Source: Rhodococcus sp. IITR03
GTDB lineage: Bacteria; Actinomycetota; Actinomycetes; Mycobacteriales; Mycobacteriaceae
Reading direction: 5' to 3'
DNA: 30,515 nucleotides
Assembly: GCA_001017865.1 (NCBI GenBank)
Contig: LATQ01000279.1
Location: 1-30,515, forward strand
Part shown: in pieces, positions 2,311-22,595 of the stretch
How the letters are laid out: the number at the start of each line of letters is the position of its first letter
Numbering within the stretch: position 1 is the stretch's first letter
Notes under the pieces: generated by a model
The model's input: the letters and a program-made list of their open reading frames with translations, nothing else
Database searches by the model: none
What the model was told of the DNA's origin: nothing
Program-made: the position numbers and the translations under genes

Positions 2311-2344
2311 CCCGGATGAGTTCATATGGTTCCGTCAGCGCGTA

Positions 2345-2357: not shown

Positions 2358-2397
2358 CGATTCACCCGCGCCCTCCAAGGGCGGAAACGGAGCAGCA

Positions 2398-4162: not shown

Positions 4163-4750
4163 ATGACTACTGCCGCGACACCAGCGCGCTACAAAGGAGT
4201 GAGCTCGTACAACTTCGGATCTGCGTTCGGCACGATCCGTGCCTTCCACACACCGCAGGACGTCATCGACGTCTTCGGTGACGACCTCGGTAGTGTCATC
4301 GCGCTGGTGGAGTCCGGCGGCACTACCTTCCTCTCGCCGATCCTCGGCCGATTGGGCGGAATCGTCTGCACGTCCGGCACCTCCCGGTCGCACTTGGCTA
4401 TCGTGTCGCGAGAATACGAAGTTCCGTGCCTGCTGGCCGTCGACCTCGCCGACTGGATGCCTGCCGACGGTGATGCGGTGCGTATGGAGTCGTCGTCCGA
4501 CAACGAAGGTTGGCTGATGCCGGCCAGCGAGGCAGACGTGTCGGGCGGGAGTACGCCGATGTCCTTGCTATCCTGCCTCCGTATCCGACGACATCTCGCA
4601 CGCGGGGCCGACCCGCCAGTACACCTCCGACACAACCGGCTGTCCTGTCACCGACTGGTGGAACTACATCGCTACCGTCGGAGACGAGATCGGGCGCAAG
4701 CCCTTTCCGTCATCGGTCACGGTCGACACAGTGAAGCAGCTGTGTCGTGA
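4163..4750 (+). CDS. PEP-utilizer phosphohistidine domain protein, copy B (3' end unclear)
   Basis: The start at 4163 has an AAAAGGA ribosome site. Residues 40-110 match the His domain of copy A closely: TTFLSPILGRLGGIVCTSGT, then SRSHLAIVSREYEVPCLL, with His77 as the expected phospho-acceptor. The recognisable protein ends around residue 128 (about 4545). The open frame to 4750 then becomes Arg-rich and is not believable. From about 4540 the convincing reading moves to another frame (REYADVLAILPPYP), and again at about 4585 (SDDISHAGPTRQY). No stop codon separates it from the copy B partner once single missing bases are restored, so a fusion of His domain and partner is possible here, unlike copies A and C. 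Confidence 0.75.
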   Translation: MTTAATPARYKGVSSYNFGSAFGTIRAFHTPQDVIDVFGDDLGSVIALVESGGTTFLSPILGRLGGIVCTSGTSRSHLAIVSREYEVPCLLAVDLADWMPADGDAVRMESSSDNEGWLMPASEADVSGGSTPMSLLSCLRIRRHLARGADPPVHLRHNRLSCHRLVELHRYRRRRDRAQALSVIGHGRHSEAAVS

Positions 4751-5891
4751 GGAGATGAGCGACAACCAATTGGAACAACTCATCTTGCACATGGTCGGTC
4801 CTTCAAGCCGGAGATGACACGACGGTCCGGCTTCACTTCCGAGATCTTTCCAATGATGCCGTACATGTCCATGTCGGTGATCGAAGACTTCTACAGCTAT
4901 CCCGACCGGATCCGCGTGATCGATGCCGCCATGACGGCCGAAGAGATCGGTGCTCGACTGCGTATGCAGTCGGGGCAGATCAGTCCCCTGTGGATCTGGA
5001 TGGTCGGGTATCACTACCTTTGTGGACGCGAGCTTCTCATCAGTCTCGGAAAGCTCGGTCCGAATGATGCCCTCGATGACGTGCGGACCGTCGTCGACTT
5101 CTGGAGACGACTCACGCTCGCCCATCGAGGCGACGGCACGCTCGACTACAAGGACGCCGGCTTCACCAACAGTACCTGCCGCCGCAGGAAGTGGACTCCT
5201 TGTGCCGGACTCTTCGACCCTTGGACGCCGCGACGAGCAAAGAGTTGAAGCAGATCAACGCTGCGCTGTCAGGGTATTGCTTTATGTACTTCACCGACTC
5301 GCGGGTCGGCATCTGCGACAACGGGCCCTATCCGGACGAGAGTCGGGGCACTGCGGTCCTGGTACGGGACTTCCTGAGTTTGGACAGTGGCCCCTTCGCT
5401 TACCCCTGGGCTGAGCAGTGCAATCCCGGAGTCAGTGGCGTGACGTTGACGCTTGAGTACTCACCGTCGGCGTTCCGCGACTTCGAGATCAACGATTGGG
5501 GTACCACCTTCACCGAACCCGACCACTTCCTTTCTGCGGTCGTCAGTGCGTCGGTGGTGGCCCGATATGCCGACGGAACCACCGCCGTACTCTCGCCGGA
5601 AGAGTGGCCGGAGCTCGCCAAACGTCTGGGCGCCGAGCACCTCGGTTGTATCGGAGCTTCAGCGACATGGACCGGGAGAGCCGCATCCTCGCAGCCACGA
5701 GAATGTACAGCTGGGGACTGCGGCCGTTTGCGCGTCTTGCCGGGGTCGAAGACGCCGTCGACTGGTCGTTCTCGGACCATACGATGGCTCTCTTCCCTGA
5801 ACCGCTCGCAGACGACGATCAAGCAGCAGCAATCTTCGGCGGAGCGCTCGTCGCCCACGAGCGTCCCAGTGCTTTCACGGGTTTCAACTAG
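4546..5891 (+). CDS. Unknown-family partner, copy B, with several frame breaks
   Basis: Homologue of the copy A partner, readable only across four frame changes, each repaired by one added base: about 4585, about 4800 (restores HMVGPSFKPEMTRRSG), about 5170 (restores YLPPQEVDSL) and about 5640 (restores HLRLYRSFSDMDRES). Shared blocks: FPMMPYMSMSVIEDFYSYP, YHYLCGRELLISLG, CDNGPY, a VRDF block, INDWGTTFTEPDHF, ATRMYSWGLRPFARLAG, then DAVDWSF, ending IFGGALVAHERPSAF. It carries a segment of about 50 residues (WWNYIATVGDEIG through LEQLILHMVG) that is longer than the matching part of copy A. The 5' limit is uncertain; the TAG at 5889 is secure. The function is unknown. Confidence 0.65.
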
Positions 5892-5965
5892 ACCACCGCG
5901 CCCGAATGACCGCACAACGCACCACACGAAGTGGCCGCCGGCAGGTGGCCCGAAAGGTAGAGATC

Positions 5966-7113
5966 ATGCGTCAGTCAATGCAGCTCGTGACACCTGCAGA
6001 CGAATACCTGATCCATCAGACGCCGGATACGTTCTCGATCGTGTCCGATTCGGATGTGTCGTGGACGGAACGAGTCTGGTGCTCACTGTTCGCTCGCGAC
6101 GGCTCGCTCCAGATCGATTTCGGCCTGGGTAAATACCACAACCGCAATGTCATCGAAGGATTCGGTGGTATTTCCCGAGGCGTAGAGCAGATCACCGTAC
6201 GAGCGAGCACCGAGCTCGACCAACACCCCGAGCGGACAGGTGTCGGACCGATCGACTACGAGATCATCGAGCCGATGCGCAAGGTCCGGTGCATCCTGCG
6301 TGAAAACGACGTCCAACCCCTGTCCTTCGACGTCACCCTCACGGCGGTCCTGCCACCCTTCCTCGAACGCAAGGATGCGCAACGCGGGATGGACGGCCTG
6401 CGGATCTCCTCGGACCTGCGTCGATTCCATCAGCTGTGCACTGTCTCCGGGTGGGTCGAGATCGACGGCGAGAGAACGGAAATCACCGACGAGACCTGGC
6501 TCGGATACCGGGACCGCTCGTGGGGTGTCCGTATGGACGTGGGTGAACCGGCGCCGGACGTCCACGCGCCGAACCGCATGAACCAGAATTTCCTGCTTAC
6601 CTGGAGCCCGATGTACTTCCAGCCGGCAGATGGCAGTGCCCCGTACGAGATTCACCATTACCTCCAGTGGGTCGACGGCGAAGTCCACTACTTCTCCGGG
6701 TTCGTCAACTACGCGGATGGTCGTCAGGAGCCATTGCACGGCATGGTGGACGATCTGAAATACGACCCTGCCACACGCCGCTTGCTCGGCGGCACGATGA
6801 CCTTCGATTCCGGCTGGGGTAAAACGCGCACGGTGGAGATTGCGCCCGTGTCCGACATCGGATTCCACCTCGGCACCGCACTCTACTTCGGGTACAAGGG
6901 CGAACGGCACGGCGGTGGAAGGGCATCGACCACGTCGACGGCGAGCGGTACAAGGACATGACCGACCGTCAAACGCTGCTCGAAGCTCACCAGCTGCGAG
7001 ACTGCGTGATCACCACCCGTGAAGGTGACGCAACAGGGTTCGGAATCTTCGAATCGATGGTCATCGGCGACCATCCGCGCTACGGCCTCCGTGGTCAGGA
7101 CTCATTCCTCTGA
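5966..7113 (+). CDS. CrtC/AttH-like (DUF7064/7065-type) protein, one frame break
   Basis: About 382 aa after repair. The ATG at 5966 is preferred over an in-frame ATG at 5906 because GAAAGG sits 8 bases before it. The block TWLGYRDRSWGVR is the conserved signature of the hydroxyneurosporene hydratase (CrtC) / AttH beta-barrel superfamily, in mycobacterial-type proteins annotated as DUF7064/7065. Trp- and Tyr-rich strands (HHYLQWVDGEVHYFSGFVNY) fit a lipocalin-like double barrel. At about 6915 one missing G (GGCGG to GGCGGG) breaks the frame; repair gives HGGWKGIDHVDGERYKDM and a C-terminus ending GLRGQDSFL. No signal peptide is seen. It closes the 2398-7113 operon. A hydratase or lipid-binding role is only a family-level guess. 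Confidence 0.7.
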
Positions 7114-7332: not shown

Positions 7333-8150
7333 TCACCGCCGTTGCGAGCGCGCGAGCAGCGCCAACTCCATCCTGGACTGGCAGCCAGTGGCGGTGAGGA
7401 TGCGGGAGATGTACTTCTTGACACTGTCTTCGGCCAAGGAAAGCGTCTCCGCGATCTGCGCGTTGGACAGGCCTTCGGCAACGAGGTGGACCACCTGTTG
7501 TTGCCGCTCCGGAAGTCGGGTCAAGGTAGCGAGCGGCCGCGTGGTGGGTAGTCCGCGGGCGATGGCGGACAGTTGGCGGCTGAGCAATCGAAGGGTCGCC
7601 ATTTCGTGCACGCCGAGCTTGTTGGGCTCGGGATCGAACATGCCGACCAGGGCAGTGTGTCCGCCACCGAGTTCGAGTCGCATCGCGGCGGCAGTTTCCA
7701 TTCGCCATGTCGAGCGCAGGAAATGCCGGACGTACGCGGCTGCGCCGGCGGCAGGGGCGTGACCGCCTGCAGTTCCGTCATGGAGGCGACTCCACTGGTC
7801 ACCAGTTGCTGCACTGCGGCGCTGCAGCCGAATATATCGTGGCGGGCCCACCGTTCCTGGTATTCGGGCAGCATTTTCGCTGTTGCACCTTCGGTCAGCG
7901 GGGCGGCGTCCTCGAAGACGGTGTGGAAGGTCGCTCCGGCGAAGAAGGATACGTGTTGCAGGCCGAATTGATCTTGCAGGGCTTGGACAGTGCGTTCTTT
8001 GAAGTCGGGGACGGACGCCGCATCGGCGCAGCGTTCGAGTACGTCGAACGCGAGCTCGTAATCACGCGGTTCAAGGACTTTGCGTATTGGGGACCTGGTC
8101 GACGGGGGTGCGGAACGAGTGTTCCGAAGGCCTGTCGAATTGTCCCCCAT
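7333..8150 (-). CDS. LuxR-family transcriptional regulator, one frame break
   Basis: About 272 aa after repair. The C-terminal 60 residues form a LuxR/NarL HTH: RLPERQQQVVHLVAEGLSN, then AQIAETLSLAEDSVKKYISR. The N-terminal 190 residues (RDYELAFDVLERCADAASVP, DQFGLQHVSFFAG) look like a GAF/autoinducer-type sensing domain of unknown ligand; there is no receiver-type phosphoacceptor pattern. The frame breaks at about 7743; one added base joins AVTPLPPA to AAAYVRHFLRSTW. The ATG at 8150 lies inside the 26-bp shared promoter element; an upstream ATG at 8210 is in the same frame, so the true start is unsettled. It is divergent from the long operon at 8281 and is the likely regulator of that operon, possibly also of itself. 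Confidence 0.82.
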
Positions 8151-8166
8151 AGTGGACTGGGTCACA
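8141..8166 (+). promoter_or_regulatory. 26-bp element shared with the 2.3-kb promoter
   Basis: Twenty-three of 26 positions match 2285-2310. It sits in the divergent region between the LuxR gene and the long operon, 115-140 bp before the ATG at 8281, and overlaps the possible LuxR start. The AGTGGAC half also occurs in the perfect palindrome at 30041-30055. Likely an operator for coordinated control of the two phosphotransfer operons. Confidence 0.62.
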
Positions 8167-8207
8167 GCGCGCATAGTAGCTAGATTTCGGTCACAGAGTA
8201 AGAGGTT

Positions 8208-8280: not shown

Positions 8281-8997
8281 ATGTCTGATTCTGAATGGAC
8301 CAGTCCTAAATGGGGAGCTACGGAAGTGCTTCCGTTGCCGAGCCGCTTCAACTCCATGGTGCGGACGCTCGCGGCGGACCGTTTCGCAGCGACCGGTGCA
8401 CGATGGAAGGACGTCGTCTTCGAGCGCGAATTCGAATTGTTCTCGCGCGCAGACGCGGACACGATCGAGAAGGAAGTCCTCGACTCCGGCTACCGCTTCG
8501 ACTTCTCGGCAACGGTGTCACTCGAATCCGAGCCGGAGAAGTACAGGCGACCTGAACGTGAAACACCCGGATTCGCCGAGGAACAGTCCACAGACGGCCG
8601 TAGACAGGTCGGTGTCGGTGACAACGTCATCAGCAAGGCGCAGACGGTCGTCGGCCCCGTTGCTCTGATCTCCACCATCGAACAGGTGATGGGTTACCTC
8701 ACCGATGGGGTGCCTGCCGGCACCATCGCGGTGATCGACGATTCGGGCGGCACCTTGACCGCCCCGATCATCGAAGGGTTCGCGGGGGTCATCTGCCTCG
8801 GCGGTACGGTCCGCTCTCACCTGGGCATCCTCGCTCGGGAGTACGACGTTCCCACCCTGATGAACTGCAAGATCGACGAACTCCAGGACGGAGATCTGGT
8901 CGAGCTCGAAGTGACCGCGGCACCTCCCGCCTCGGATGCATACGAAACCGGCGACATCGGGCACGCCCGAATCTGGCTGATCGAGAACGAGGGCTGA
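8281..8997 (+). CDS. PEP-utilizer phosphohistidine domain protein with N-terminal extension, copy C
   Basis: A 238-aa protein with an intact frame; GAGGA precedes the ATG. Residues 125-215 form the swivelling His domain: GVICLGGTVRSHLGILAREY, then DVPTLMNC, with His180 as the expected phospho-acceptor and DGDLVELEV closing the fold. The first 120 residues are a charged extension absent from copies A and B (WKDVVFEREFELFSRADAD); I do not recognise it. There is no ATP-grasp and no PEP barrel. It is first in a long operon that also encodes a truncated dikinase able in principle to charge it from ATP. Its stop is three bases before the next start. Confidence 0.85.
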   Translation: MSDSEWTSPKWGATEVLPLPSRFNSMVRTLAADRFAATGARWKDVVFEREFELFSRADADTIEKEVLDSGYRFDFSATVSLESEPEKYRRPERETPGFAEEQSTDGRRQVGVGDNVISKAQTVVGPVALISTIEQVMGYLTDGVPAGTIAVIDDSGGTLTAPIIEGFAGVICLGGTVRSHLGILAREYDVPTLMNCKIDELQDGDLVELEVTAAPPASDAYETGDIGHARIWLIENEG

Positions 8998-9000
8998 AAC

Positions 9001-10577
9001 ATGGCGAACCTGAACTACCGGTCCCTGCTCGAGACCAACAACTACGTGCGGAATCTGTCCGACACCACCTACTGGCTGTGCATCACCCGCACGGTGCAGG
9101 AATCGAAGCTCTTCCCGATGAGCCCCTACATGCTGCTGAGCTATCTCAACAGCTTCTACCGGCTGCCACCCAGCTGAGAGAGATCGATGCGATCACTCCC
9201 GCAGAAGAACTCGGCGACCGTGCACGCGAGGTCAGTCTCAAGGTCAACACCGTCAACGGCGCCTGGGGCATGCCCACCTTCTACCTCCTCGGCCGCGAAA
9301 TGCTGATGAACTGGGGTCTGATCCGGCCCACGGACGCAGTCGACGACGTCGTCGACGTGCTCGACTTCTCGCGACGGTTCAACCTCGCATACCACCGCAA
9401 CGACGGTCATCTCACCAACAAGGAATTCGGCGACCGCAGCCAGTTCCTGCCCGAGCGCACCGTACAGGTCTTCGAAGCCGACCTGCACGGGGTCACCCCC
9501 GGCGACCGTCTGCACACTGCAGCCACCAAGCTCATCGCCCAGTTGTCACAGTTCGCGTTCCTCGCGCACTGCGAGTGCCGCATCGGCCTGCACAACAGTG
9601 GGCCGTACGACTTCGGTAATGACCGGCAGATGATCGTGCGGGACTTCTTCGATCTCACCGAAGGCGACTATCCCTGGCTGGACGGCATCGCGACGCGACT
9701 GCCGTTCAACAATCTGACAATCCCGATTGTCTTCAAGGACACGAACTTCCATCTGATGGATGACTGGGCGTCGTTCGAAGCCGAACCGAGCTACAACGCC
9801 TCCAACATCGTGGCCATCGGCATGTACAGCTCCGATGCCCTGACCGACGGTTATGTGCCGGTCGGGATGGACAATGCCGACACCTTGGCCGACACCATGG
9901 AGCAGTACCGCGAGATCCTCAACGAAGCGACCACCGACCTGTGGAAGCGCATCGCGTCCTGGTCCCGGGAACAGATGATCGACGCCGGCGCCCTCGTCTA
10001 CTCCTCGGTGGGCAAGGATTTCGCACACCTGGCAGGAACCTACCGCCAGGACGACTGGCTCCAACTCGACGAACGCGTCCAACGCTTCAAGCCTCTGATG
10101 AACGACGAGTACGGACGCGACCACCTCGGCGAAATGGTCGGCCTGCTCGGACTGCCGCACCAGTCCGCCAACGAATACACGATGGCGCGCTACTCGTCGC
10201 AGAACCGGAACATGATCAACGGCATACCCTATTCGGTACTCACCGATGACGACTATGCCCCGACCGTAGGTGACCACTTCTCCGGCTCGAGCAGCCTGCC
10301 CGTCAAGACCGGGCTGTGGACAACCAGCGCCGGACGGATCGACATCGACGATTACAACGCGCGAGCGCGCGGGTTCACTCCGGCAGTGCTCGACGGTGCG
10401 CACCGCTACCACGACGAAGAATGGGTGAAATGGCACCACGGGAGCGCGCAAGCCGACGAGCTCTACCGCCTCACCCAGCGTGGCTCGCGCAACCTCGAGG
10501 GACGCGGTTCCGCACTCAGTCGTGCAGACCTGACTGGTCTTGGTGACCCGAAAGGCGACGACCATGCAGATCGGTGA
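9001..10577 (+). CDS. Unknown-family partner, copy C, one frame break
   Basis: About 525 aa after repair; the longest of the three paralogues. The frame breaks at about 9166; one base restores FYRLPTQLREIDAITPAEEL. Blocks shared with copies A and B: SKLFPMSPYMLLSYLNSFY, YLLGREMLMNWG, DVVDVLDFSRRF, LHNSGPY, IVRDFFD and GDYPWLDGIATRLPFNN. The C-terminal 180 residues (QNRNMINGIPYSVL onward) extend beyond the other two copies. No known catalytic motif, membrane segment or signal peptide. It starts three bases after the phosphohistidine protein and overlaps the next gene by 14 bp. The fixed pairing with a His-domain protein in all three copies is the only functional clue. Confidence 0.78.
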
Positions 10578-12033
10578 CCTGATCCGACGCGCCGGCGCGC
10601 AGTTCGGTTCGGCACCGGCGTTGATCCACGAGGACCGGGTGGTGAGCTTCGCCGAATTCGACGAACTCACCGACCGGCTCGGTAACGCCCTGCTAACCGC
10701 CGGTCTCACAGCCGGCAACCGGGTTGCAGTGCTCATGCCCAACGGCATCGATGGAGTTGTTGCTTATTATGCGATTGCGAAAGCGGGATTGGTTCGAGTT
10801 CCGCTCAACGTCCGCGAGACCGCATCCGAGCACGCGTACAAGATCGACGACTCGCAGGCCCGCGCTCTCATCTACGCAGGAGACCCGCCTGCATCGGTCG
10901 AGGTGATGATCACCGCCGACGAACTTCCCGGCCTCATCGCGGGTGCCTCGCCCGGCCCGTGCGACATACGACGTGAGCAGGATGCACCGTTTCGTCTGGC
11001 CTACACCGGCGGGACCACAGGAAAACCCAAAGCGGTGGTCCTGACCACGCGCAGCGAACTCGCGGAGGTCGCCAACTTCCTCGTTGATCTGCTGCCCAAC
11101 CTTCGGCCGGATTCGGTGATGCTGCATGCAGCGCCCATCACGCACGGCAGTGGTGCGTTCTTCCTGCCGCATCTGGTCAAGGGCGCTCCGAACGTGATCC
11201 TGCCGAAGTTCACCTCCGCAGCCTTCCTTGAGGCAGCACAAAAATACCGGGCCACAACGACGTTCATGGTGCCGACGATGATCGCGCTGCTTCTCGAGGA
11301 TCCGGACGCGGCGACAGCGGATCTCACCCTCGAGCGCCTGTGCTACGGCGGAGCTCCGATCGCTACCAGCGTGCTGCAGCGTGGTCTCGATCTGCTCGGC
11401 CCGGTCTTCGCCCAGCTGTACGGGCAAGCGGAAGCTCCGCTGGCGATCACATGCCTGCAACCGTGGGAACACACCCCGGAGCGGCTCACCTCCGCCGGCA
11501 AGCCGTACACCTTCGTCGAGGTCCAGATCCGCGACACCGACGGCAACGTCCTCGGTCCCGGCGGGGTGGGAGAGGTTCTCACCAGAGGTCCTCACACCAT
11601 GAGCCGGTACTGGCGACGTCCCGAGGCGACCGCCGAGACGATCGAACCGGACGGGTGGCTGCACACCGGCGACATCGGACGGTGGGACGACGACGGCTAC
11701 CTGCATCTGCTCGACCGCCGGCACGACGTGATCATCTCGGGTGGCTTCAACGTCTACCCGCGTGAGGTCGAAGACGCCCTGCTGACCCATCCGTCTGTGA
11801 TCGAAGCAGCGGTTGTCGGCCTTCCCGACGACAAGTGGGGTGAGCGGGTCGCGGCTGCCGTGGTCACCCGCAGCGAAACGCGTCCCGAGGAGATCCTCGA
11901 GTTCTGCGCGGACCGGCTGGCCGGATTCAAGCGCCCGCGTGCCATCGAAATCTGGCCCGCAATCCCTACCAGCCCCGTCGGCAAGTCGCTACGCCGCGAA
12001 GTACGCGACCGAATGGCCGCGGCCCGGCAGTGA
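10564..12033 (+). CDS. Acyl-CoA synthetase (AMP-forming)
   Basis: A 489-aa ANL-superfamily ligase with an intact frame. The ATG at 10564 is chosen because GAAAGG lies 8 bases upstream; an earlier in-frame start at 10540 lacks a site. Motifs: phosphate loop LAYTGGTTGKPKAVV, LCYGGAPI, LYGQAEAPLAI, hinge GWLHTGDIGRWDDDGY, then RRHDVIISGGFNVYPREVE, and catalytic Lys in TSPVGKSLRREVRD. It resembles the medium-chain / coumarate-CoA ligase-like branch. Between the phosphotransfer genes and the biotin carboxylase genes, it could activate the acid made by the carboxylase, giving a CoA ester for the thiolase at 18267. Substrate not readable. Confidence 0.9.
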   Translation: MQIGDLIRRAGAQFGSAPALIHEDRVVSFAEFDELTDRLGNALLTAGLTAGNRVAVLMPNGIDGVVAYYAIAKAGLVRVPLNVRETASEHAYKIDDSQARALIYAGDPPASVEVMITADELPGLIAGASPGPCDIRREQDAPFRLAYTGGTTGKPKAVVLTTRSELAEVANFLVDLLPNLRPDSVMLHAAPITHGSGAFFLPHLVKGAPNVILPKFTSAAFLEAAQKYRATTTFMVPTMIALLLEDPDAATADLTLERLCYGGAPIATSVLQRGLDLLGPVFAQLYGQAEAPLAITCLQPWEHTPERLTSAGKPYTFVEVQIRDTDGNVLGPGGVGEVLTRGPHTMSRYWRRPEATAETIEPDGWLHTGDIGRWDDDGYLHLLDRRHDVIISGGFNVYPREVEDALLTHPSVIEAAVVGLPDDKWGERVAAAVVTRSETRPEEILEFCADRLAGFKRPRAIEIWPAIPTSPVGKSLRREVRDRMAAARQ

Positions 12034-12063
12034 CCCGCCGACCAGCACCGAAAGGACCCCATC

Positions 12064-12671
12064 ATGCTCGATCCGTACGAGCTCACCGTGCACACCCTGA
12101 CTCTGCGCCAACTCGGTTCCGCCGAAGATCTCAGTGACATCAACGGTCTTGCGGTCGACGACGTCGAAGCGGCACTGGAGAAGGCCGTCGTCGAAGGCAC
12201 CGTCATGGCCGCGCGCGGAAACAACATGATCACCCCGCGGGCCGTGAATTCCTCGACACCGTGTACCCGCGCACGTTCGCTGCGCTGCGGGCCGACACGG
12301 CTGTCACAGCAGCGATGGATGCCTTCGAAACGGGCGTGAACAAACAGATTCTCGCACTGACCACCGACTGGCAGACCATCGAGATCGACGGCGATCGGGT
12401 GCCCAACGACCACGGCGACCAAGACTACGATTCCAAGATCATCACCAAGCTCGGCCGGGTGCACGAGAAGACCTACAAGGTCCTACGCCCGCTGGCCGAC
12501 GCAGACCCTCTCGTCGATCGATTCCTCGACCGGATCGGCGACGCTCTCGTCCGCGCGGAAGGCGGCGAAACCGACTACGTCAGCGGGGTACGGGTCGACT
12601 CGGTGCACACCGTGTGGTTCCAGATGCACGAGCACATTCTTCGGCTGACCGGAAGGGAACGTCCGGAATGA
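12064..12671 (+). CDS. Winged-helix-like small protein coupled to the truncated dikinase, one frame break
   Basis: About 202 aa after repair. The ATG at 12064 follows GAAAGGA. The N-terminal 70 residues (LRQLGSAEDLSDINGLAVDD, then VEAALEKAVVEGTVMAARG) have the helix-helix-wing look of a winged HTH; the rest is helical and acidic and includes KIITKLGRVHEKTYKVLRPL. The frame breaks at about 12240; one base restores PRGREFLDTVYPRTF. The stop overlaps the dikinase start (ATGA). From memory, the truncated M. tuberculosis dikinase Rv1127c has a neighbour of about 200 aa (Rv1126c) that may be the counterpart; I could not check this. A regulatory or accessory subunit of the dikinase is more likely than a DNA-binding repressor, given the tight coupling. 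Confidence 0.65.
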
Positions 12672-14406
12672 GTACCACAACGAGTTTGCAGTGGCTGGTC
12701 GTACCGGACGAGGTCGCAACCGAACCGAGCCGGGATCTGGTGGGTGGAAAAGCATGGAGCCTGTGGCGCATGCGGTCCCTCGGACTGCGGGTTCCTCCTG
12801 CCTTCGTCGTCACCACCGAGGCCTGCACGGCGTATTTCGCCGAGGGTCACATGCCCGAGGGTCTCGACGAGGAGCTGGTCGCGGGAATCCGTTTCCTGGA
12901 ACAAAAACTAGGCCGTACTTTCGGTGGTAGCGAACGCCCGTTGCTCGTCTCGGTGCGATCGGGTGCTGCCATCAGCATGCCCGGCATGATGGACACGATC
13001 CTCGACCTGGGATGCAACGACACCGTCGAGGCCGCCCTGGCCGCCGAGAGCGGCGATCCGGATTTCGCGGCCGAAGTGCACCGCCGATTCACAGGTTCTA
13101 CGGCCGACTGGTGCTGGGATGCACCGAAGACCTCGACGACTTGCCTGACACCATCGCCATCCGTGCGGCCATCGCCGAGGATGTCGACGCGACCGTACCG
13201 GCAGACCCGTGGGAACAACTCCGCGCCGCTGTGGCCGCGGTGTTCGAGTCGAGTCGCTCGCGACGTGCGCTGGCCTACCGCAAGCACTACGGCATTCCCG
13301 ACGACCTCGGAACGGCGGTCACCATCCAGGCGATGGTCTTCGGCAATCTCGACGACGACTCCGGTACCGGGGTGCTTTTCACCCGTAACCCCGTCGACGG
13401 CACCCGAGAGCCCTACGGTGAGTATCTGGCCAAAGGGCAGGGTGAGGACGTGGTCTCCGGCCGGATCACGCCGGAACCGTTGTCCTACCTCGCCGCTCGC
13501 TGGCCTTCGGTGCACGCCGAACTTCTCGAGGCTGCAGAGTGTCTCGATCGCGAGGGCCGCGATGCGCAGGACATCGAGTTCACCGTCCAGAGCGGCGAGC
13601 TGTTTCTGCTCCAGTCGCGTCCGGCGAAGCGGACCGCCCGAGCAGCGGTGCGCATCGCGGTCGAACTCGTCGACGAAGGCGTCCTCGAACCGGACGAAGC
13701 GCTGTCGCGAGTGACCGCCGATCAGATCCGGACCCTGTTGCGGCCCGAGATCGCTCCCGGGGCCGCTGACGACACCGACGTGCTTGTCAGTGGTGTGCCT
13801 GCCAGCCCCGGAGTGGCAACGGGACTGGTGGTCGACACCCCGGAAGCTGCGCAAGCCACGCCCGGTTCCATCCTGGTTCGCAAGTCGACCAGTCCCGACG
13901 ACGTGCACGGGATGATCGCCGCGTCTGCGGTGATTACCGAGCAGGGCGGGTCGACCTCGCATGCGGCGGTCGTCAGTCGGGCGTTGGACACACCGTGCGT
14001 CGTTGGATGTGGCGCCGGCACGGTCACGGCTCTGGTGGGCCGTACCGTCACGGTCGACGCGACGACCGGTCGCGTCTACGCCGGTGAGCTGCCGACCTCG
14101 GCCGTGGATGAAAGTGAGGACGACGATCTGCGCCGCCTCACCGAATGGGCCGAACGCGCCGCACCGCTGACGGTGAGCACGACTGCCGTGCTCGAGCCGG
14201 TCTTCGACGCGGATGCCACGGCTATCGACGATCTCGGCGAGAAACTGCCCGACATCCCTGCCGGCACCAAATCTGTTCGCGGAGGAATTTTCTGCGCCCC
14301 CGACGGTGTGCGCGCTGCCATGGACGCCGGCGTCGAGGAGATCGTCACCGCCCACCGGCTTCCGGTGCTACTCGCTGCCGTCGCACACCACAGGAGAATC
14401 TCATGA
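12668..14406 (+). CDS. Truncated pyruvate phosphate dikinase-like phosphotransferase (ATP-grasp + His domain, no PEP barrel), one frame break
   Basis: About 579 aa after repair, against roughly 880 for full-length PPDK. The N-terminal nucleotide-binding domain shows VGGKAWSLWRM, the signature SMPGMMDTILDLGCND, GTAVTIQAMVFGN, GTGVLFTRNP and FLLQSRPAKRT. The His domain follows, with EQGGSTSHAAVVSRALDTPC; His432 is the expected phosphohistidine. The C-terminal PEP/pyruvate TIM barrel is absent, so the phosphate from ATP must go to another acceptor or carrier, as in phenylphosphate synthase-type systems. About 120 residues after the His domain are of unknown function. The frame breaks at about 13092; one base restores RRFTRFYGRLVLG. 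Overlaps on both sides are ATGA. The stand-alone His-domain proteins are plausible relay partners. Confidence 0.86.
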
Positions 14407-14962
14407 CCACACCGGAGCGTGTCACCTACCGCGACGTGCGGGAGATTCTGCGTACCTTCCGCGACTCCGGCTGGGCCGCGATGACGCTGGAAATGGACGG
14501 AATGCGCATCACCGTCGGCAAGGACGGTCCGCCGACGGCCCCGGCACGAGCTGTTGCCGATGTACCGACACCGGCCCGGCAGGTCGCGTCGGCGACCGTC
14601 CCTGCGGTGACGCACACACCGCCGACCAGCACAGCCGATAGTACGAACGCCGCCGATACGGCGCCTGGCGTGTATGTCCCAGTCCCGGTACCGGCGGCGT
14701 CGGCGGACACCAGCGGATGCATCGAGATCACGTCACCGACCGTCGGTGCGTTCTGGGTGGCGCCGAGCCGGGTGAACCGCCGTTCGTGCAGGTCGGGCAG
14801 AAGGTCGAGGCCGGCGAGCAACTCGCGATCGTCGAAGTGATGAAGCTGATGAATCCGGTCGTTGCGCCGCAGAGCGGCGAGATCGTACAGATCTGCGCCA
14901 AGAACGCCGATCTTGTCGAGTTCGACCAGGTGCTGTTCTTGATCAGGCCGACCGATGACTAG
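14403..14962 (+). CDS. Biotin carboxyl carrier protein, one frame break
   Basis: About 186 aa after repair. An N-terminal helical segment (REILRTFRDSGWAAMTLEMD) and an Ala/Pro/Thr-rich linker (residues 40-100) lead to a biotinyl domain: EITSPTVGAFWVAPEPGEPP, VQVGQKVEAGEQLAIVEVMK, LMNPVVAPQSGEIV. Lys148 in EVMKLM is the biotinylation site. The frame breaks at about 14764; one base joins VGAFWVAP to EPGEPPFVQVG. The arrangement resembles AccB of acetyl-CoA carboxylase. The start overlaps the dikinase stop (ATGA), placing the carboxylase in the same translational unit as the phosphotransferase. It would carry CO2 from the biotin carboxylase at 14984 to the carboxyltransferase at 16360. Confidence 0.88.
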
Positions 14963-14983
14963 CCTTCGAATCTGGCAACCACG

Positions 14984-16363
14984 GTGTCCGAAGGCTTTCC
15001 CCTGCGGCGCGTGCTGGTCGCCAATCGCGGTGAAATTGCAGTTCGTGTCATCAAGGCGTGCCGCGACCTCGGTATCGAAACGGTGGCTGTCACCTCGACG
15101 GTGGACAGAGTCGGTCTCGCGGCCCGGATGGCGGATCGAGCGGTATGCATCGGTCCGCCGCCCGCCGGCGACAGTTACCTGTCCATTCCTGCGGTGCTCA
15201 CCGCCGCACTCGGAACCGGTTGTGATGCGGTACATCCAGGCTACGGATTTCTCTCCGAGAATCCCGAGTTCGCTGCGGCGTGTGTTGCCGAAGGGCTGGT
15301 GTTCGTCGGTCCTCGCCCCGATGCGGTGGCCGAGGCGGGGGACAAGGCACGGGCGCGGGAGTTGGCGCGTTCGGCGGGGATACCGGTGCTGTCGGGATCG
15401 CCTGTGCTCGACTCGACCGAGGCTGCAGTCGCGGCAGCCGCCGAGCTGGGTTACCCGGTCCTGGTCAAAGCCGCGGCCGGCGGCGGTGGACGCGGCATGT
15501 CCGTCGTCGAGAACGAAGCCGAACTTCGCGCACGGTGGTCGTCGGCCGCCGCCGAAGCACAGTCGGCGTTCGGTGACGGCCGCACCTATATCGAACGGTT
15601 CATTCGCAATGCCCGACACATCGAGGTGCAGGTCCTCGGCGACAAGCATGGCTCGGTGATCCATCTCGGTGAACGCGACTGCACGCTCCAGCGCCGTCAC
15701 CAGAAGGTGGTCGAAGAGTCGCCGGCACCGAACCTGCCGGAGAAGGTGCGGCAGGATATTCGGTGCAGCGGCGTCGCCTTCGCCCAGGCACTGGGTCTCG
15801 ACAGCGCCGGCACCGTGGAGTTCATCTATGACTCCGACACCGAGGAATTCGCGTTCCTCGAATTCAACGCCCGGATCCAGGTCGAGCACCCCGTCACCGA
15901 GATGGTCACCGGCGTGGACCTGGTCGTCGAACAACTGTGCTCGGCGGCGGGTATTCCGCTGCGGTTCGCCCAGGACGACATTCACATCGTCGGGCACGCT
16001 GTCGAGGTCAGAATCACCACCGAGGATCCGGCACGTGGATTCCTTCCCAATCCCGGCACGGTCACCCGATGGGAACCGCCGAGGGGGGAGGGGATCCGCG
16101 TCGACAGCCACTGCGAAGCCGGCTATGTCGTTACTCCCTACTACGACTCCCTCCTGGCCAAGATCGTCGCGCACGGCCCGGACCGAGACACGGCCGCGGA
16201 CCGTATGGTCGCTGCACTGGGAGATCTGGGCGTCTCCGGCGTCCCCACGACCGCAGGATTCGCACGGGTAGCGCTCGACCATCCGGACTTTCGGGCGGGA
16301 ACTGTGACCACCGACTGGATCGCCTCTCGGGGCCTACCCCACTACTTGGAGAAGATCTCATGA
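14984..16363 (+). CDS. Biotin carboxylase subunit
   Basis: 459 aa, the usual AccC length, with an intact frame. It carboxylates biotin on the carrier using ATP and bicarbonate. Motifs: RRVLVANRGEIAVRVI, HPGYGFLSEN, VKAAAGGGGRGM (ATP-grasp Gly loop), HIEVQVLGDKHG, LGERDCTLQRRHQKVVEESP, EFNARIQVEHPVTEMV (catalytic Arg and metal Glu) and PNPGTVTRWEPP. The GTG at 14984 gives an AccC-like N-terminus but has no ribosome site. An ATG at 14955 overlapping the BCCP stop would reach the same protein if one base were missing near 14983, which fits the pattern in this window. Followed by the carboxyltransferase with an ATGA overlap. Confidence 0.92.
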   Translation: MSEGFPLRRVLVANRGEIAVRVIKACRDLGIETVAVTSTVDRVGLAARMADRAVCIGPPPAGDSYLSIPAVLTAALGTGCDAVHPGYGFLSENPEFAAACVAEGLVFVGPRPDAVAEAGDKARARELARSAGIPVLSGSPVLDSTEAAVAAAAELGYPVLVKAAAGGGGRGMSVVENEAELRARWSSAAAEAQSAFGDGRTYIERFIRNARHIEVQVLGDKHGSVIHLGERDCTLQRRHQKVVEESPAPNLPEKVRQDIRCSGVAFAQALGLDSAGTVEFIYDSDTEEFAFLEFNARIQVEHPVTEMVTGVDLVVEQLCSAAGIPLRFAQDDIHIVGHAVEVRITTEDPARGFLPNPGTVTRWEPPRGEGIRVDSHCEAGYVVTPYYDSLLAKIVAHGPDRDTAADRMVAALGDLGVSGVPTTAGFARVALDHPDFRAGTVTTDWIASRGLPHYLEKIS

Positions 16364-17857
16364 GCTATCTGGACTGCGCCCCGCGCAATGCCGACGGCAG
16401 CCGCCGCACCATCGACATCGTGGACCAGACCTTGCGCGATGGTCCGCAGAGTTGGTGGGGCATGCGCCTGCGCAAAGACATGGGCTTACCCATGGCAGCG
16501 GAACTGGACCGCACGGGCTTTCACACCATCGATCTCGTCGGAAGCTCCATCTTCGAGGTGCTGGTGCGGCACTGTAAGGAGGATCCCTGGGATCAACTGA
16601 TCTCACTGTCGGAGGCCATGCCGAGAACCACGGTGCGGGCCGGCACTCGAAGCAACGGCATCGTGACCTTCGGGCTCACGGCAGACAGTGTGATGGATCT
16701 GTGGGTGCAGCGGTTGTGTGCACATGGCATCGGCAGCTTCTGGATCTACGACGGACTGTTCAACATGGACAAGATCGGTCGGCTGGTCAAGACGGTGCAG
16801 GCCGAAGGTGCCCAGGCCATTCCGTGCATCCTCTATGCGGACACGCCCTATCACACCGACGAGTACTACGCTGCTCGCACGCGTGAGCTCGTCGCCACCG
16901 GCGCGGACGGAATCGAGCTCGAGGACGCTGCCGGTCTGCTCACTCCAGAACGCACGCGGTCGTTGATCGCGGCGATCAAGGGCGCAGCCGGTGATCTGCC
17001 GTGGAGATCCATTTTCACAGCAACAATGCGATGGCACCGGTGAACTATCTCGAGGGTGTGCTCGCCGGCGCCGACCGTGTCCACACCGCCAGTCGTCCAC
17101 TGGCCGCTGGCGTGTCTTTGCCCTCCACCGAGAACACGGTGGCGAATCTGCGCTATGCCGGGTTCGACGTCGATCTCGATGACTCCTACTTCGCTGCCGT
17201 CGAGGAGCACCTGCTTCGCGTGGCCGATTACGAGGAGTTGCCGGTCGGTCAGCCCGCGGAGTACTCCTTGTTCCAGTATCGGCACCAGCTGCCGGGCGGG
17301 ATGGCCGGTACGTTCAAGGCGCAGCTGCGTGATCGTGGCATGGAGGACCGTTTCGAAGAGGTACTCGACGAAATGTCGGTGGTACGCGAGGAACTGGGCT
17401 ATCCCGTGATGGCGACGCCGTTCTCGCAGCTGGTCGGCACGCAGGCGTACTCAACGTGGTGACCGGATCGCGCTACTCGGTCGTGCCGGATGAGGTGATG
17501 ATCTACGCTAACGGCTTCTATGGTAAGCCCGTCGCTCCTCTCGATCCCAATGTCCTCGACAAGATCATGAGCTCGCCCAAGGCGAAGAGCTACGAGAACT
17601 GGGAGCCCCCACAGCCCAGCCTTGCAGACCTGCGTGCGAAGTTCGGCGGCTCGATCAGTGACGACGAGCTGATTCTGCGGCTTCTGGTGCCGGAAAACGA
17701 TATCGACGTCATGCGCGCGACCCCTCGACGTCAACGTGACTTCTCCCCGACGAGCAAGCAGACGCGGTACATCCAGGAACTGGTCGAGACCGCGGTCGGT
17801 GCCTACTTGCACATCGAAGCCGACGACTTCTCGCTGACCTTGGAAGGGGACCACTGA
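16360..17857 (+). CDS. Carboxyltransferase subunit, transcarboxylase 5S / pyruvate carboxylase CT type, two frame breaks
   Basis: About 499 aa after repair, the length of transcarboxylase 5S. DQTLRDGPQS opens the barrel (Asp22), HFHSNN supplies the paired metal-ligand histidines (His218, His220), and PFSQLVGTQAVLNVVTGSRY is the conserved C-terminal barrel signature. These place it with CTs that carboxylate keto substrates (pyruvate, oxaloacetate) rather than acyl-CoAs. The residue that should be the carbamylated metal-ligand Lys (5S Lys184, in IKDMAG) is Glu188 here (IELEDAAG). TRSNGIVTFG replaces the usual LLRGAN stretch. Breaks at about 17000 (restores LPVEIHFHSNN) and 17446 (restores GTQAVLN) each need one base. 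ATGA overlap with the biotin carboxylase. Substrate unknown; a ketone or modified keto compound is my inference. Confidence 0.87.
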
Positions 17858-18267
17858 TGAGCGAGCTCGGCGTGGGTCGACCCACCAAGCGGCGAGCCGG
17901 TTCGGCGGTCGGCGGTCTTCCGGTGGCCGACCCGCGGCCGACCTTCGACGGCGAAGTCGTGCTCGGCACGCGGTGCACCGAATGCCGATATCCGACTGCC
18001 CAGCAAGGACTGCCGTGGTGTCCGGTGTGCTACGCGGCCATGGACGATGCACGTTTCGCTCGGACCGGAAAAGTCTGGTCGTCCACGGTGGTTGCCATCC
18101 CGGTCGGCACGCATCGACCTCCGTTCGGTTTGGCCTATCTCGACCTCGACGATGGTCCCCGGGTGCTCGTCCATCTCGCGGAGCCTGCCGTGCTCGAACT
18201 CGGCGCTCGTCTCGAGATCACCGGGACAGACGACGGCAACCTTGTTGCGTCCAGAAAGGTGCAGTGA
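17857..18267 (+). CDS. DUF35 OB-fold protein with zinc ribbon
   Basis: 136 aa, intact. Two Cys pairs form a rubredoxin-like zinc ribbon (CTECRYPTAQQGLPWCPVC, residues 44-62), followed by an OB-fold strand set (GKVWSSTVVAIPVG, PPFGLAYLDLDDGPRVLVHL, GARLEITGT). DUF35 proteins bind acyl-CoA and usually form a complex with a SCP2-type thiolase or aldolase, as in steroid side-chain degradation. The thiolase is the next gene, overlapping by one base (TGATG), and this gene overlaps the carboxyltransferase stop the same way. It probably presents the CoA ester to the thiolase. Confidence 0.88.
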   Translation: MSELGVGRPTKRRAGSAVGGLPVADPRPTFDGEVVLGTRCTECRYPTAQQGLPWCPVCYAAMDDARFARTGKVWSSTVVAIPVGTHRPPFGLAYLDLDDGPRVLVHLAEPAVLELGARLEITGTDDGNLVASRKVQ

Positions 18268-19406
18268 TGGAACAGGCGATGCTGTGGGGTGTGGGAACCT
18301 CCGCCTATGGCCGGTTCCCGGACCGGAGGGTGGAGTCGCTGGCCTGGACGGCAGTGGCCGAGGCGGTCCGGGATGCGGGTATCGAGCCGGGGCAGATCGA
18401 TGCGATCATCGTCGGCTCGGTGTTCGGTCCGCCGGGGGTGGCCACCCGGGTCCAGCGAGGGCTCGGAATCCCCTCCGTTCCGATGTGGACGGTCGAAAAT
18501 GCCTGTGCCAGTGGAACGAGCGCCTACCACGAGGCAGTCGAAGCGGTACGTCTGGGTAGGTTCGGTTGCGTACTGGTACTCGGCGTGGACCAGATGTCGA
18601 CCCTCTTCTCCGGCGCGATCGTCCCCGAGGCCACCGATCCCGAAGGGGCGTCGTCGTTACCGCTGCCCGGCCTGTACGCACTGCAGGCACAACGGTATGT
18701 GGGGGAGTTCGGCGTTACCCCCGAGCAGCTCGCGACCGTCGCGGTGAAGAACAAACGCAACGGCATGGACAACCCGCGTGCCCAATTGCGGGACGCAGTA
18801 CCGACCGTGCAGGAGGTGCTGGACTCCCGCATGATCGCGGAACCTTTGACCTTCCTGCAGTGCTGCCCCACGAGCGATGGTGCGGGCGCTGCGATCGTCG
18901 GGGGCGAACGAGGCAACCCGAACGACCTGCGTATCGAATCCTCCGTCCTGGTCTCCGGTGCGTTGTGGGATCACCGCAGCGAGGAGGTGTGGGGGTACGC
19001 GAGCGTGGCACGCGCCGCCGAGAAGGCATTCGCAGAAGCCGGCCGCACTGCTCAGGAGATCGATGTACTCGAAGTGCACGATGCCTTCACGATCGGCGAG
19101 ATCATCACCTTGGAGGCTTTGGGCCTTGCGCCGCGCGGTAAGGGTGCCGAACTTGCCCCCTCCGGACACACCACGCGTGATGGGGTCCAGCCGGTCAATC
19201 CGAGCGGGGGGTTGTTGTCGCGTGGGCACCCCCTCGGCGCCACCGGCATGGCACAGATCGCCGAGATCTCGTGGCAGCTGCGTGGACGAGCCGGCGCTCG
19301 ACAGGTCGCGCGGCATCGGGTCGGTCTGGTGGAGACCATGGGGGGAGGGGCGGCCGGAATGGACGGCAATGCCTGCGTGATCACGATCCTGTCGACCCAG
19401 TCATGA
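18267..19406 (+). CDS. SCP2-type thiolase / lipid-transfer aldolase-like
   Basis: 379 aa, intact. Thiolase fold with the nucleophile in VENACASGTSAYHEA (Cys80), the His loop EVHDAFTIGE, GHPLGATGMAQIAE, and a C-terminal Cys in GNACVITIL. Having both cysteines and both histidines favours true thiolysis over the retro-aldol Ltp2 members, which usually lack part of the set. It should cleave a beta-ketoacyl-CoA, which fits a pathway in which the carboxylase makes a beta-keto acid and the ligase at 10564 activates it. Paired with DUF35 by TGATG overlap; overlaps the phosphatase gene by ATGA. Confidence 0.88.
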   Translation: MEQAMLWGVGTSAYGRFPDRRVESLAWTAVAEAVRDAGIEPGQIDAIIVGSVFGPPGVATRVQRGLGIPSVPMWTVENACASGTSAYHEAVEAVRLGRFGCVLVLGVDQMSTLFSGAIVPEATDPEGASSLPLPGLYALQAQRYVGEFGVTPEQLATVAVKNKRNGMDNPRAQLRDAVPTVQEVLDSRMIAEPLTFLQCCPTSDGAGAAIVGGERGNPNDLRIESSVLVSGALWDHRSEEVWGYASVARAAEKAFAEAGRTAQEIDVLEVHDAFTIGEIITLEALGLAPRGKGAELAPSGHTTRDGVQPVNPSGGLLSRGHPLGATGMAQIAEISWQLRGRAGARQVARHRVGLVETMGGGAAGMDGNACVITILSTQS

Positions 19407-20179
19407 CGTCCTCATATGCGGGACTGCTGGGGTTTCGGGACCTGGGCGGTTTGCGGACGAACGACGGTGGACGCGTTCGACATGGCGTGCTCTACCGCAG
19501 TGGAACCCCGCAATTTTTGGACCTGCACACAGCCCGCGAGTTGATCTCTGCGACCGGGATACAAGCGACGATCGACCTACGCCTGCCTCATGAGGTCGCG
19601 GTGGAAGGTCGAGGTCCGCTCGACGAGTTGCGTGTGGCCCATCTTCCGAACCCGTTCAGTATTCCTGACACAGTCGCGTCGGACTCGGCTGTGGCCCCTA
19701 TGGTCGGCGACGATCCTCTTGTCACGAGATATCTCTCGTACCTGGAGGCCGACGCAGCTGGGGCGGTGGCGGTGCTGTCCCGGTTGCTCGAACCGGCTAC
19801 GCTGCCGGTGCTGGTGCACTGCACTGTCGGCAAGGACCGAACCGGAGTGGCGATCGCGCTGGTGCTTTCTGCCATCGGCGTGCGGCGTGGAGACATCGTC
19901 GCCGATTACGCGGCTGCTACCGACGACGTGGTTGCGTCGATGCGCAGATTGCGTGAGATGGCCTCGTACGGTCCTGCGGCGGATCTATACCCGCCGGAAG
20001 CGTGGACTGCGCCGCCGGACGCGATGGAACGCTTTCTCGACCGTGTCGATCGAGAACACGGCGGAGTGTCGGCGCTACTTCAGCGTCATGGGATCGGGCC
20101 CGATGCGGTCGAAAGGTTGTCGAAGCTTCTCGTTGCCTATGACATCGCCGAAACGGAGGAAGACGATGCAGGTGAATGA
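19403..20179 (+). CDS. Tyrosine-phosphatase-like (MptpB-type) protein
   Basis: 258 aa, intact. The P-loop HCTVGKDRTG (Cys140, Arg146) is that of the Y_phosphatase3 family, which includes mycobacterial PtpB; GFRDLGGLRT and LYRSGTPQFL near the N-terminus are also typical. The family removes phosphate from phosphotyrosine and phosphoinositides. It is unusual inside a catabolic operon and overlaps the thiolase stop by ATGA. In an operon built on phosphotransfer it may act on a phosphorylated intermediate or on a phosphorylated protein; neither is shown by sequence. No signal peptide, so cytoplasmic. Confidence 0.85.
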   Translation: MTSSYAGLLGFRDLGGLRTNDGGRVRHGVLYRSGTPQFLDLHTARELISATGIQATIDLRLPHEVAVEGRGPLDELRVAHLPNPFSIPDTVASDSAVAPMVGDDPLVTRYLSYLEADAAGAVAVLSRLLEPATLPVLVHCTVGKDRTGVAIALVLSAIGVRRGDIVADYAAATDDVVASMRRLREMASYGPAADLYPPEAWTAPPDAMERFLDRVDREHGGVSALLQRHGIGPDAVERLSKLLVAYDIAETEEDDAGE

Positions 20180-20579
20180 AAGTCGAGTTGTTGCCGCTGA
20201 CCCGGCGACGGTATGGAAGATCGGTGGCGACACCGCGAATGTCGCGGATTGGATTCCCGCGCTGGAAAGCTCGTATCAGCGTGGAGATATGCGGTACACG
20301 ACGTTCGCCGGTGGTGGTGAAGCCGTCGAACGGATCGTCGAGCACGATGATCAGCAGAGGCGTTACGTGTACGACTATGTCTCGGGTCCCTTGCCTCTCG
20401 AGGTGTACCGGTCGGTCTTCGCTGTGGTCGATCATCCCGATGGTGCACGGATCACCTGGGACGCAGATTTCAGGGGTACTTCCGCTGAGGAGGACGCTGC
20501 GCTGGCCCAGGCGATCTCGGAGATCTACCGTGCGGCACTGGATGAGCTGGAGAACCGCGTCGTTCGCGATCGAGTATGA
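20166..20579 (+). CDS. SRPBCC / polyketide cyclase-like small protein
   Basis: 137 aa, intact. It starts at the ATG 20166, overlapping the phosphatase gene by 14 bp. The pattern VVAADPATVWKIGGDTANVA, then DWIPAL, with RYVYDYVSGPLP in the middle and a long amphipathic C-terminal helix (AQAISEIYRAALDELENRV), matches the START/SRPBCC helix-grip fold that binds hydrophobic ligands. Some members are cyclases or dehydratases; no catalytic residue can be named. Last gene of the long operon, followed by a hairpin. Confidence 0.78.
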   Translation: MQVNESRVVAADPATVWKIGGDTANVADWIPALESSYQRGDMRYTTFAGGGEAVERIVEHDDQQRRYVYDYVSGPLPLEVYRSVFAVVDHPDGARITWDADFRGTSAEEDAALAQAISEIYRAALDELENRVVRDRV

Positions 20580-21287: not shown

Positions 21288-21336
21288 TCCAGTCATATGC
21301 AGGTACTCGTCGTACCCACATGGAAGGAATCCTCGG

Positions 21337-22585: not shown

Positions 22586-22595
22586 CCGGGGCTGT

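Follow-up and report, generated by a model that had tools for sequence, protein, structure and literature searches.

The stretch of DNA analyzed here, bases 1-30,515 of contig LATQ01000279.1 from Rhodococcus sp. IITR03 (hereafter, the window), is collinear over its whole length with plasmid pA of Rhodococcus pyridinivorans P23, at 99.3% identity. It holds a compact co-directional run of genes on the plus strand (8281-20579), twelve in the intact P23 copy (locus L001) and designated g1 through g12, among which are genes for a phosphotransfer system, a biotin-dependent carboxylase, a coenzyme A (CoA) ligase, a thiolase and a phosphatase-family protein (Table 1). Compared to the P23 plasmid, the window carries many single-base deletions that disrupt reading frames across positions 1-30515, in a manner that resembles uncorrected long-read assemblies; because of these deletions, several genes that are intact on the plasmid are frame-broken here. 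The original prediction for this stretch described thirteen mostly overlapping genes on one strand. The single strand and the tight packing hold up (of the 11 junctions in L001, 9 are overlaps of 1-14 bases and 2 are gaps of 3 and 30 bases), but the intact copy has twelve genes. Similarly, the unit delimited at 8281-20579 is real, but a co-inherited upstream block (~2326-6961) was overlooked, and the conserved unit begins near 2326, not 8281. Families were assigned to the window proteins with Pfam and NCBIfam, g2 and g4 being scanned as their longer window pieces only.

Table 1. Features of the operon and its upstream block, in window coordinates (PEP, phosphoenolpyruvate; PPDK, pyruvate, phosphate dikinase)
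Feature	Position	Strand	Assignment	Remarks
swivB	2326..2772	+	free-standing swivel protein (PEP-utiliser mobile-domain relative)	annotated PEP-utilizing enzyme in P23
g2B	2769..3964	+	second acceptor-type protein, g2 paralogue	frame broken in window
fusC	4163..5891	+	natural fusion of swivel and g2-like acceptor domains	frame broken in window
DUF7065-like	5906..6961	+	partner of upstream block	frame broken near end
LuxR-type	7333..8174	-	regulator	divergent from operon
g1	8281..8997	+	swivel protein, invariant histidine	PF00391
g2	9001..10577	+	putative phospho-acceptor (substrate-binding) protein	frame broken in window; 525 aa in intact copy
g3	10564..12033	+	AMP-forming acyl-CoA synthetase	PF00501, PF13193
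g4	12064..12671	+	protein of ~200 aa, no family	frame broken in window; fused to g2 in some homologues
g5	12668..14406	+	PPDK-type ATP-grasp and second swivel domain, without pyruvate domain	frame broken in window
g6	14403..14962	+	biotin carboxyl carrier protein (BCCP)	VMKLM biotin site; annotated biotin/lipoyl protein in P23; frame broken in window
g7	14955..16363	+	biotin carboxylase (BC)	domain matches; 46.5% identical to Hpe BC
g8	16360..17857	+	carboxyltransferase (CT), OADA/PYC type	frame broken in window; sister clade of Hpe CT
g9	17857..18267	+	DUF35-type OB-fold protein	OB_ChsH2_C; CxxC...CxxC motif read from sequence
g10	18267..19406	+	thiolase	NACASG cysteine and GHP histidine motifs read from sequence
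g11	19403..20179	+	tyrosine-phosphatase-family protein (Y_phosphatase3)	PF13350, E 4.8e-47; candidate dephosphorylation enzyme
g12	20166..20579	+	SRPBCC protein	Polyketide_cyc2

Linkage of the gene set

A CT-alignment scan of genome contigs (one genome per species, 84,980 species) returned 257 stretches encoding a relative. The best 80 of the 257 were kept (79 loci) and, with two plasmid loci added, make up 81 loci, which span Actinomycetota plus alpha-, beta- and gammaproteobacterial genomes; 53 are flank-complete around the CT gene. Among these 53, the acceptor g2 is found in 44 and the complete set g1-g7 in 40. All 23 flank-complete loci with a CT at least 75% identical carry g1-g7, and the 30 more distant ones have g2 in 21 cases and all of g1-g7 in 17. 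In 36 of the 53, including 13 outside the close clade, g1-g8 share a strand and keep the window order. The original prediction of BCCP, BC, CT, acyl-CoA synthetase, DUF35 and thiolase genes in one linked unit is supported. The arrangement is not universal: L033, L034 and L037, all actinobacterial, begin with the carboxylase trio, a Bacillus locus has yet another order, and 13 of the 53 have fewer than eight of g1-g8 on the CT strand. All 23 close loci with complete flanks carry the thiolase/DUF35 pair, which also turns up in five distant loci of shorter extent (Panacagrimonas and Nevskia among them); 22 of the 30 flank-complete distant loci carry a different, thiol2-type thiolase.

The same linkage is seen within the family. 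Of 401 same-family genomes, supplied without completeness data, 17 have g2, the main acceptor, at E 2.5e-198 or better, and the identical 17 carry a close-clade CT (E below 1e-260), g2 and CT being on the same contig in every one. The two genes start 7.3-7.4 kb apart in 16 genomes and 4.5 kb apart in the other, G020, where the g2 match is partial. Eight further genomes hold distant g2 paralogues only, and none of these has a close CT (G1136 has a distant CT elsewhere); up to the top three candidates per listed genome were scored in this sample, so three acceptor matches is the maximum. The gene association is more than chance. Moreover, it extends upstream: when flanks were examined in 15 same-family genomes, swivB, g2B, the DUF7065-like gene, the divergent LuxR regulator, g1 and g2 were present in all 15, and fusC gave a clear match in 13, while the 34% matches in the remaining two may be due to its paralogue. 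In 2 of the 15 the carboxylase stretch falls outside the examined flanks, and a separate search puts the CT gene on the same contig. The examined flanks differ in extent among the 15, so that the counts of outer genes, where low, are minimum values.

The phosphotransfer proteins

The original prediction of a PEP-synthase-like phosphotransfer system was right in that a dikinase and swivel proteins are present, but g5 is of the PPDK type. It matches PPDK structures at E 3e-112, with most of its ATP-grasp and swivel domains aligned, and its larger window piece exceeds the cutoff of NCBIfam NF004531 (equivalog "pyruvate, phosphate dikinase"). PPDK shares these two domains with g5, but its C-terminal pyruvate/PEP domain was not found there, the two window pieces giving PPDK_N and PEP-utilizers only in Pfam; the intact g5 has 579 aa, as against about 874 for PPDK. 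That NF004531 scores g5 despite the missing domain suggests that such "pyruvate, phosphate dikinase" annotations may mislead. The swivel histidine is invariant in both proteins, in 53/53 aligned rows for g1 and 55/55 for g5, with the P23 sequence counted twice in each alignment. The putative acceptor g2 falls in no Pfam family (longer window piece) and has no PDB sequence match (best E 0.33), and the model of a g2 homologue (predicted local distance difference test score, pLDDT, 83) gave no clear fold match, an absence that does not exclude an RPH-like acceptor domain. Neither Pfam nor NCBIfam assigns a family to the longer window piece of g4, which is fused to g2 in homologues such as P0104 and P0109. 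Apparently, the pyruvate/PEP domain that g5 lacks is replaced in this operon by g1, g2 and g4, and the dikinase class is probably new.

The upstream block holds further parts of the same kind. The swivel protein swivB is 32-44% identical to g1 and fusC; g2B is 27.6% identical to g2 over 352 aa, and fusC 30.7%. In the model of a fusC homologue (pLDDT 88.6), the N-terminal domain matches swivel domains. The DUF7065-like protein scores 22.1 bits, under the Pfam cutoff of 27. The block comprising swivB, g2B, fusC and the DUF7065-like gene probably performs additional phosphorylations supplied by the same g5. A broader proposal, which we put forward tentatively and with more doubt than belief, is that of a modular dikinase class, in which one PPDK-type ATP-grasp protein would charge its own histidine and feed several interchangeable swivel-plus-acceptor units of a new acceptor fold, three of them encoded on the Rhodococcus plasmid, with one unit dedicated to a biotin-dependent ketone carboxylase whose canonical lysine is replaced. 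If this is true, the modular dikinase would be a soluble hub for catabolic phosphotransfer, analogous in layout to the sugar phosphotransferase system.

Dikinase components also occur without a carboxylase, at L103 (2257-16725), L104 (9917-14705) and L144-L148. These clusters hold a PPDK-type protein and swivel/acceptor proteins, often with g4-like and DUF7065 proteins; L103, L147 and L148 also have a P450 gene, several have a ferredoxin reductase or an aldehyde dehydrogenase gene, and DUF7064/7065 proteins occur in L104 and L145-L148. A rival reading of the operon is that dikinase and carboxylase serve different steps of one pathway: an alcohol would be activated by the dikinase (e.g., for elimination, the DUF7065-like protein taking part), and the carboxylase would use an unphosphorylated ketone or ketoacid. 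Such clusters with their neighbors speak for this division, as do the two further swivel/acceptor units adjoining the operon. Nevertheless, we consider it unlikely, given that the eight sampled genomes with distant acceptor paralogues only lack a close CT while all 17 with the main g2 have one, and that the g1-g8 order is kept in two-thirds of the flank-complete loci (36/53), Proteobacteria included. As to the carboxylase-free clusters themselves, they may perhaps serve phosphate-activated dehydration of alcohols.

The carboxylase and the Hpe pathway

The nearest known pathway is Hpe, published in 2022 for Rhodococcus rhodochrous GD02 (PMC9618137). It comprises a dikinase (HpeHI, characterized in PMC12167813), a biotin-dependent carboxylase (HpeCBA) and a phosphatase (HpeD), together with a predicted CoA ligase and a predicted hydrolase. 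Homologous pathways are described in PMC13101465, Acv of Sphingobium lignivorans SYK-6 among them; that paper also describes the MarK pathway of Novosphingobium aromaticivorans. In the Hpe/Acv scheme, a hydroxyphenyl ketone is phosphorylated, biotin-carboxylated, dephosphorylated, CoA-ligated and cleaved (PMC9618137, PMC12167813, PMC13101465); HpeCBA, produced in strain RHA1 after E. coli had failed, is reported to have carboxylated phosphorylated ketones and not free ones, with the phosphate on the phenol oxygen while the methyl ketone is carboxylated (PMC9618137). The original prediction knew of no described pathway with the combination seen in the window, but Hpe already unites a phenolic dikinase and a biotin-dependent carboxylase of ketones with dephosphorylation, CoA ligation and cleavage of the beta-keto product (PMC9618137). 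In its logic the combination is thus known from Hpe/Acv; it is the parts that differ.

An hpe cluster was located at L105 in G020, where HpeI matches PDB 9goj (794 bits over 367 residues); since an HpeI structure has been published, we infer from the match that 9goj is HpeI. The next genes at L105 encode BCCP, BC, CT and a HAD protein, in this order. Table 1 of PMC9618137 puts CT before BC, and the masses given there for HpeA (57.4 kDa) and HpeB (49.3 kDa) would also fit exchanged labels. Against this cluster, the operon's CT is 35.0% identical and its BCCP 46% over 71 residues (see Table 1 for BC). The dikinase parts are distant, with the g5 swivel 32% identical to HpeH over 128 residues and its ATP-grasp 27% to HpeI over 253; the CoA ligase g3 has short weak matches only to HpeE, and g1, g2, g11 and the thiolase g10 have no meaningful match to the cluster. 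Conversely, HpeH and HpeD found no match in the 81 loci, and HpeI had 2 stray ones. Given these identities and null matches, the operon's carboxylase is sister to HpeCBA, and its remaining pathway proteins come from other families. The ATP-grasp protein of the operon is of the PPDK type, whereas HpeI at L105, after 9goj itself, best matches PEP synthase and RPH; there are two swivel histidines (g1, g5) and an acceptor unrelated in sequence to HpeH; a protein tyrosine phosphatase (PTP, g11) stands in place of the HAD (NagD-type) HpeD, and thiolase plus DUF35 in place of the hydrolase; the CT has lost a lysine; and two extra dikinase units lie upstream.

Other known systems are alike in part. 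Acv and MarK share the operon's logic of a kinase, a three-part carboxylase and a phosphatase acting on hydroxyphenyl ketones, but Acv is described as Hpe-homologous and MarK as a single-component kinase, neither being presented there as a PPDK-type multi-component set (PMC13101465). The phenol dikinases PpsAB and CreHI are multi-protein enzymes with a phospho-histidine swivel, as in the operon, but their ATP-grasp motif is reported to be of the PEP-synthase type (PMC12167813; comparison with the operon through HpeHI only). XccBCA of Aromatoleum aromaticum EbN1 is, by description, a biotin-dependent carboxylase in ketone degradation, clustered with hpeHI homologues, its kinase homologues thus being of the Hpe type, unlike the operon (PMC9618137). 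Within the literature searched, what is novel is a PPDK-type multi-component dikinase with an acceptor family of no known class, together with the altered CT clade; the original prediction overlooked this difference from the known phenol kinases and made no mention of the phosphatase gene g11. The acetone and acetophenone carboxylases (Acx, Apc) also convert a ketone into a beta-keto acid with ATP, as in the proposed pathway. Both are biotin-independent and belong to a different protein family, and no Pfam domain of their hydantoinase-type subunits was found in the scanned operon pieces.

In this setting, could g6-g7-g8 simply be an anaplerotic carboxylase of the ordinary kind, acting on pyruvate or an acyl-CoA, with an incidental PPDK nearby? 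Two family matches speak for it: g7 just exceeds the acetyl-CoA carboxylase BC subfamily model (598.4 bits, cutoff 597), and g8 has the HMGL-like plus PYC_OADA architecture (on the frame-broken piece in the window PF00682 scores under its curated threshold; most of the homologues listed have both domains annotated). The CT alignment tells otherwise. It has 65 rows, comprising 60 of the 87 CT open reading frames from the loci (those without the start motif or too short were left out) and 5 others; the window is represented by the intact P23 protein, so that the P23 sequence occurs twice. At the position of the lysine of OadA, pyruvate carboxylase and the 5S subunit (IKDMA-type motif), none of the 61 clade rows has lysine, the residues being E in 44 (including the window CT), Y in 13 and G in 4, while lysine is kept in the four non-clade rows (hpe, two bisphenol-plasmid clusters and Caballeronia NK8). 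We take this lysine to be carbamylated and to bridge the metal, with D22, H218 and H220 as the remaining metal ligands; these three are conserved in 64, 61 and 54 of the 65 rows. After PGGMx, the clade has G in 61/61 rows followed by T in 59, and hpe also has G-T, as compared to T-T and S-T in the bisphenol-plasmid rows and S-N in NK8 and two OadA proteins. The window CT is 28.6 and 30.1% identical to these two OadA proteins, and in a FastTree tree rooted on OadA the CT clade is monophyletic (support 0.995) and joined with the hpe group (support 1.0), with NK8 branching outside both. Judged by its sequence, the carboxylase thus appears unlike an ordinary pyruvate or acyl-CoA carboxylase, since active-site positions differ and it groups with Hpe rather than OadA; the refuting case named in the original prediction, an ordinary enzyme of that kind, is not borne out. 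With the CT lacking both the canonical lysine and the OadA S-N pair, g5 lacking the pyruvate/PEP domain, and CT linked to g2 across the 401 genomes, an ordinary carboxylase is very improbable.

Some loci (L046, L048, L049, L050, L056 and L066) have two or more CT genes, perhaps for mixed subunits or two substrates; a Y-type is paired with a G-type in L049, L050 and L056, and two Y-types occur in L048. The bisphenol-plasmid loci present another arrangement, with a Tm-1-like ATP-binding protein directly upstream of BCCP, BC, CT and a HAD protein (L082, 4963-10348; L083, 5874-11356). They lie on plasmids of S. bisphenolicum AO1 and P. putida YC-AE1, both presumably degraders of bisphenol A, and may represent another kinase type supplying a ketone carboxylase.

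Proposed pathway and its rivals

Gene content, linkage, conserved residues and family membership are established, and on these a pathway is predicted: we lean, with somewhat more belief than doubt, to the reading that the operon carries out phosphorylation-dependent ketone degradation, similar to Hpe/Acv in its working but built from different parts. In the first step, g5 would take a phosphoryl group from ATP onto its own histidine in the manner of PPDK, with inorganic phosphate as co-substrate, and pass it to the g1 histidine and then to the hydroxyl of a hydroxylated ketone held by g2, with g4 assisting. Family and linkage suggest that g7, g6 and g8 would then carboxylate the carbon adjoining the ketone of the phosphorylated substrate. 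The phosphate would be removed by g11, after which g3 would form the beta-ketoacyl-CoA, and g9/g10 would use CoA to split this, giving a shortened acyl-CoA alongside acetyl-CoA or its alkyl homologue. The last pair combines a thiolase fold with an OB-fold partner, its matches to BbsA/BbsB being weak and far under their cutoffs. In outline, then, the analysis lends support to the sequence of phosphorylation, carboxylation, CoA ligation and thiolysis that the original prediction proposed. The reading is supported by the linkage of g2 to CT, the gene order, the identity of BC and CT to hpe, the tree and the shared G-T pair, and further by the recruitment of unrelated phosphatases, the invariant swivel histidines, the natural swivel-acceptor fusion in fusC and the chemistry of HpeCBA, as far as reported (PMC9618137). 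The phosphatase slot is held by PTP in the window, SurE in 9 of the 81 loci and HAD in hpe, and such repeated recruitment from unrelated families argues for a dephosphorylation step. The favored substrate is a hydroxylated ketone, since the Hpe logic would require one.

Several observations weigh against this reading. The NK8 CT, which has the canonical positions, is 42% identical to the window CT, as compared to 34-35% for the Hpe CT; since NK8 is the closer by identity, it is the tree and two alignment positions that link the window CT to Hpe. The clade has lost the lysine that Hpe retains, so its carboxylation chemistry may differ. A PTP, SurE or HAD gene is found near CT in only 30 of the 53 flank-complete loci, with none of the three in the other 23. 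No relation of g2 to HpeH was detectable by profile comparison (hhalign probability 0.4%), nor did g1 match HpeH. No conserved-core gene points to a phenolic substrate, and the HpaB of the P23 plasmid was found in 0/15 relatives within the examined stretches. Finally, G020 carries both an hpe cluster and the present operon, which would argue for different substrates. However, its operon contig is identical to L003, from a Rhodococcus metagenome-assembled genome, and is without g3, g4 and part of g2; being an incomplete operon in such a genome, the co-occurrence is weak counter-evidence and says little on substrates. L003 is the same as L161 (PMG_259, 10,436 bases), where g2 stops after ~330 residues and continues directly into g5; the missing g3 and g4 reflect either a deletion or an assembly fault.

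The loss of the lysine gives some weight to an enol-phosphate route, in which the PPDK-type dikinase would phosphorylate the enol oxygen of an unsubstituted ketone and CT would carboxylate the activated enol directly. The natural acceptor of PPDK is the enolate of pyruvate, and g5 is of that type; with Glu, Tyr or Gly in place of the lysine, metal-assisted enolization may have changed; alcohol dehydrogenase, short-chain dehydrogenase/reductase (SDR) and 3-hydroxyacyl-CoA dehydrogenase genes, none aromatic-specific, recur as neighbors in distant loci; and the 23 loci with none of the three phosphatase types would also be in keeping with it. Nonetheless, the phosphatase near CT in the other 30 would be idle if phosphate left during carboxylation, and the Asp and His positions that we take for metal ligands are mostly conserved. 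The original prediction had raised an enol phosphate in passing, and for it no direct support was obtained: in the nearest known pathway, as described, the phosphate stays on the phenol oxygen during methyl-ketone carboxylation (PMC9618137). The enol-phosphate route is thus, in our judgment, improbable.

If phosphorylation-dependent ketone degradation is indeed the role of the operon, phosphorylation before biotin-dependent ketone carboxylation would be a general strategy served by at least two sets of dikinase parts, rather than a lignin speciality. A function would be at hand for the g2 family, now mostly annotated "hypothetical protein", for short "pyruvate, phosphate dikinases" without the pyruvate domain, and for DUF7065-like partners. 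For enzymology, and for the production of beta-keto acids out of ketones and CO2, it would single out a group of carboxylases whose active site is altered, and it yields a prediction, open to testing, about ketone degradation encoded on rhodococcal plasmids.

Downstream of the operon (~21300-29500), the window has genes for an HsaA-like flavin enzyme, which scores far below the HsaA cutoff, a large LuxR regulator, and NTF2-like, RibB-like, flavin reductase, nitronate-monooxygenase-like and mycofactocin-coupled SDR proteins. The SDR and the HsaA-like enzyme would fit secondary-alcohol and phenol oxidation, though they lie outside the core. Members of this set recur in 4-7 of the 15 relatives in the stretches examined, with the HsaA-like enzyme and the NTF2-like protein in 7 each and the SDR in 6.

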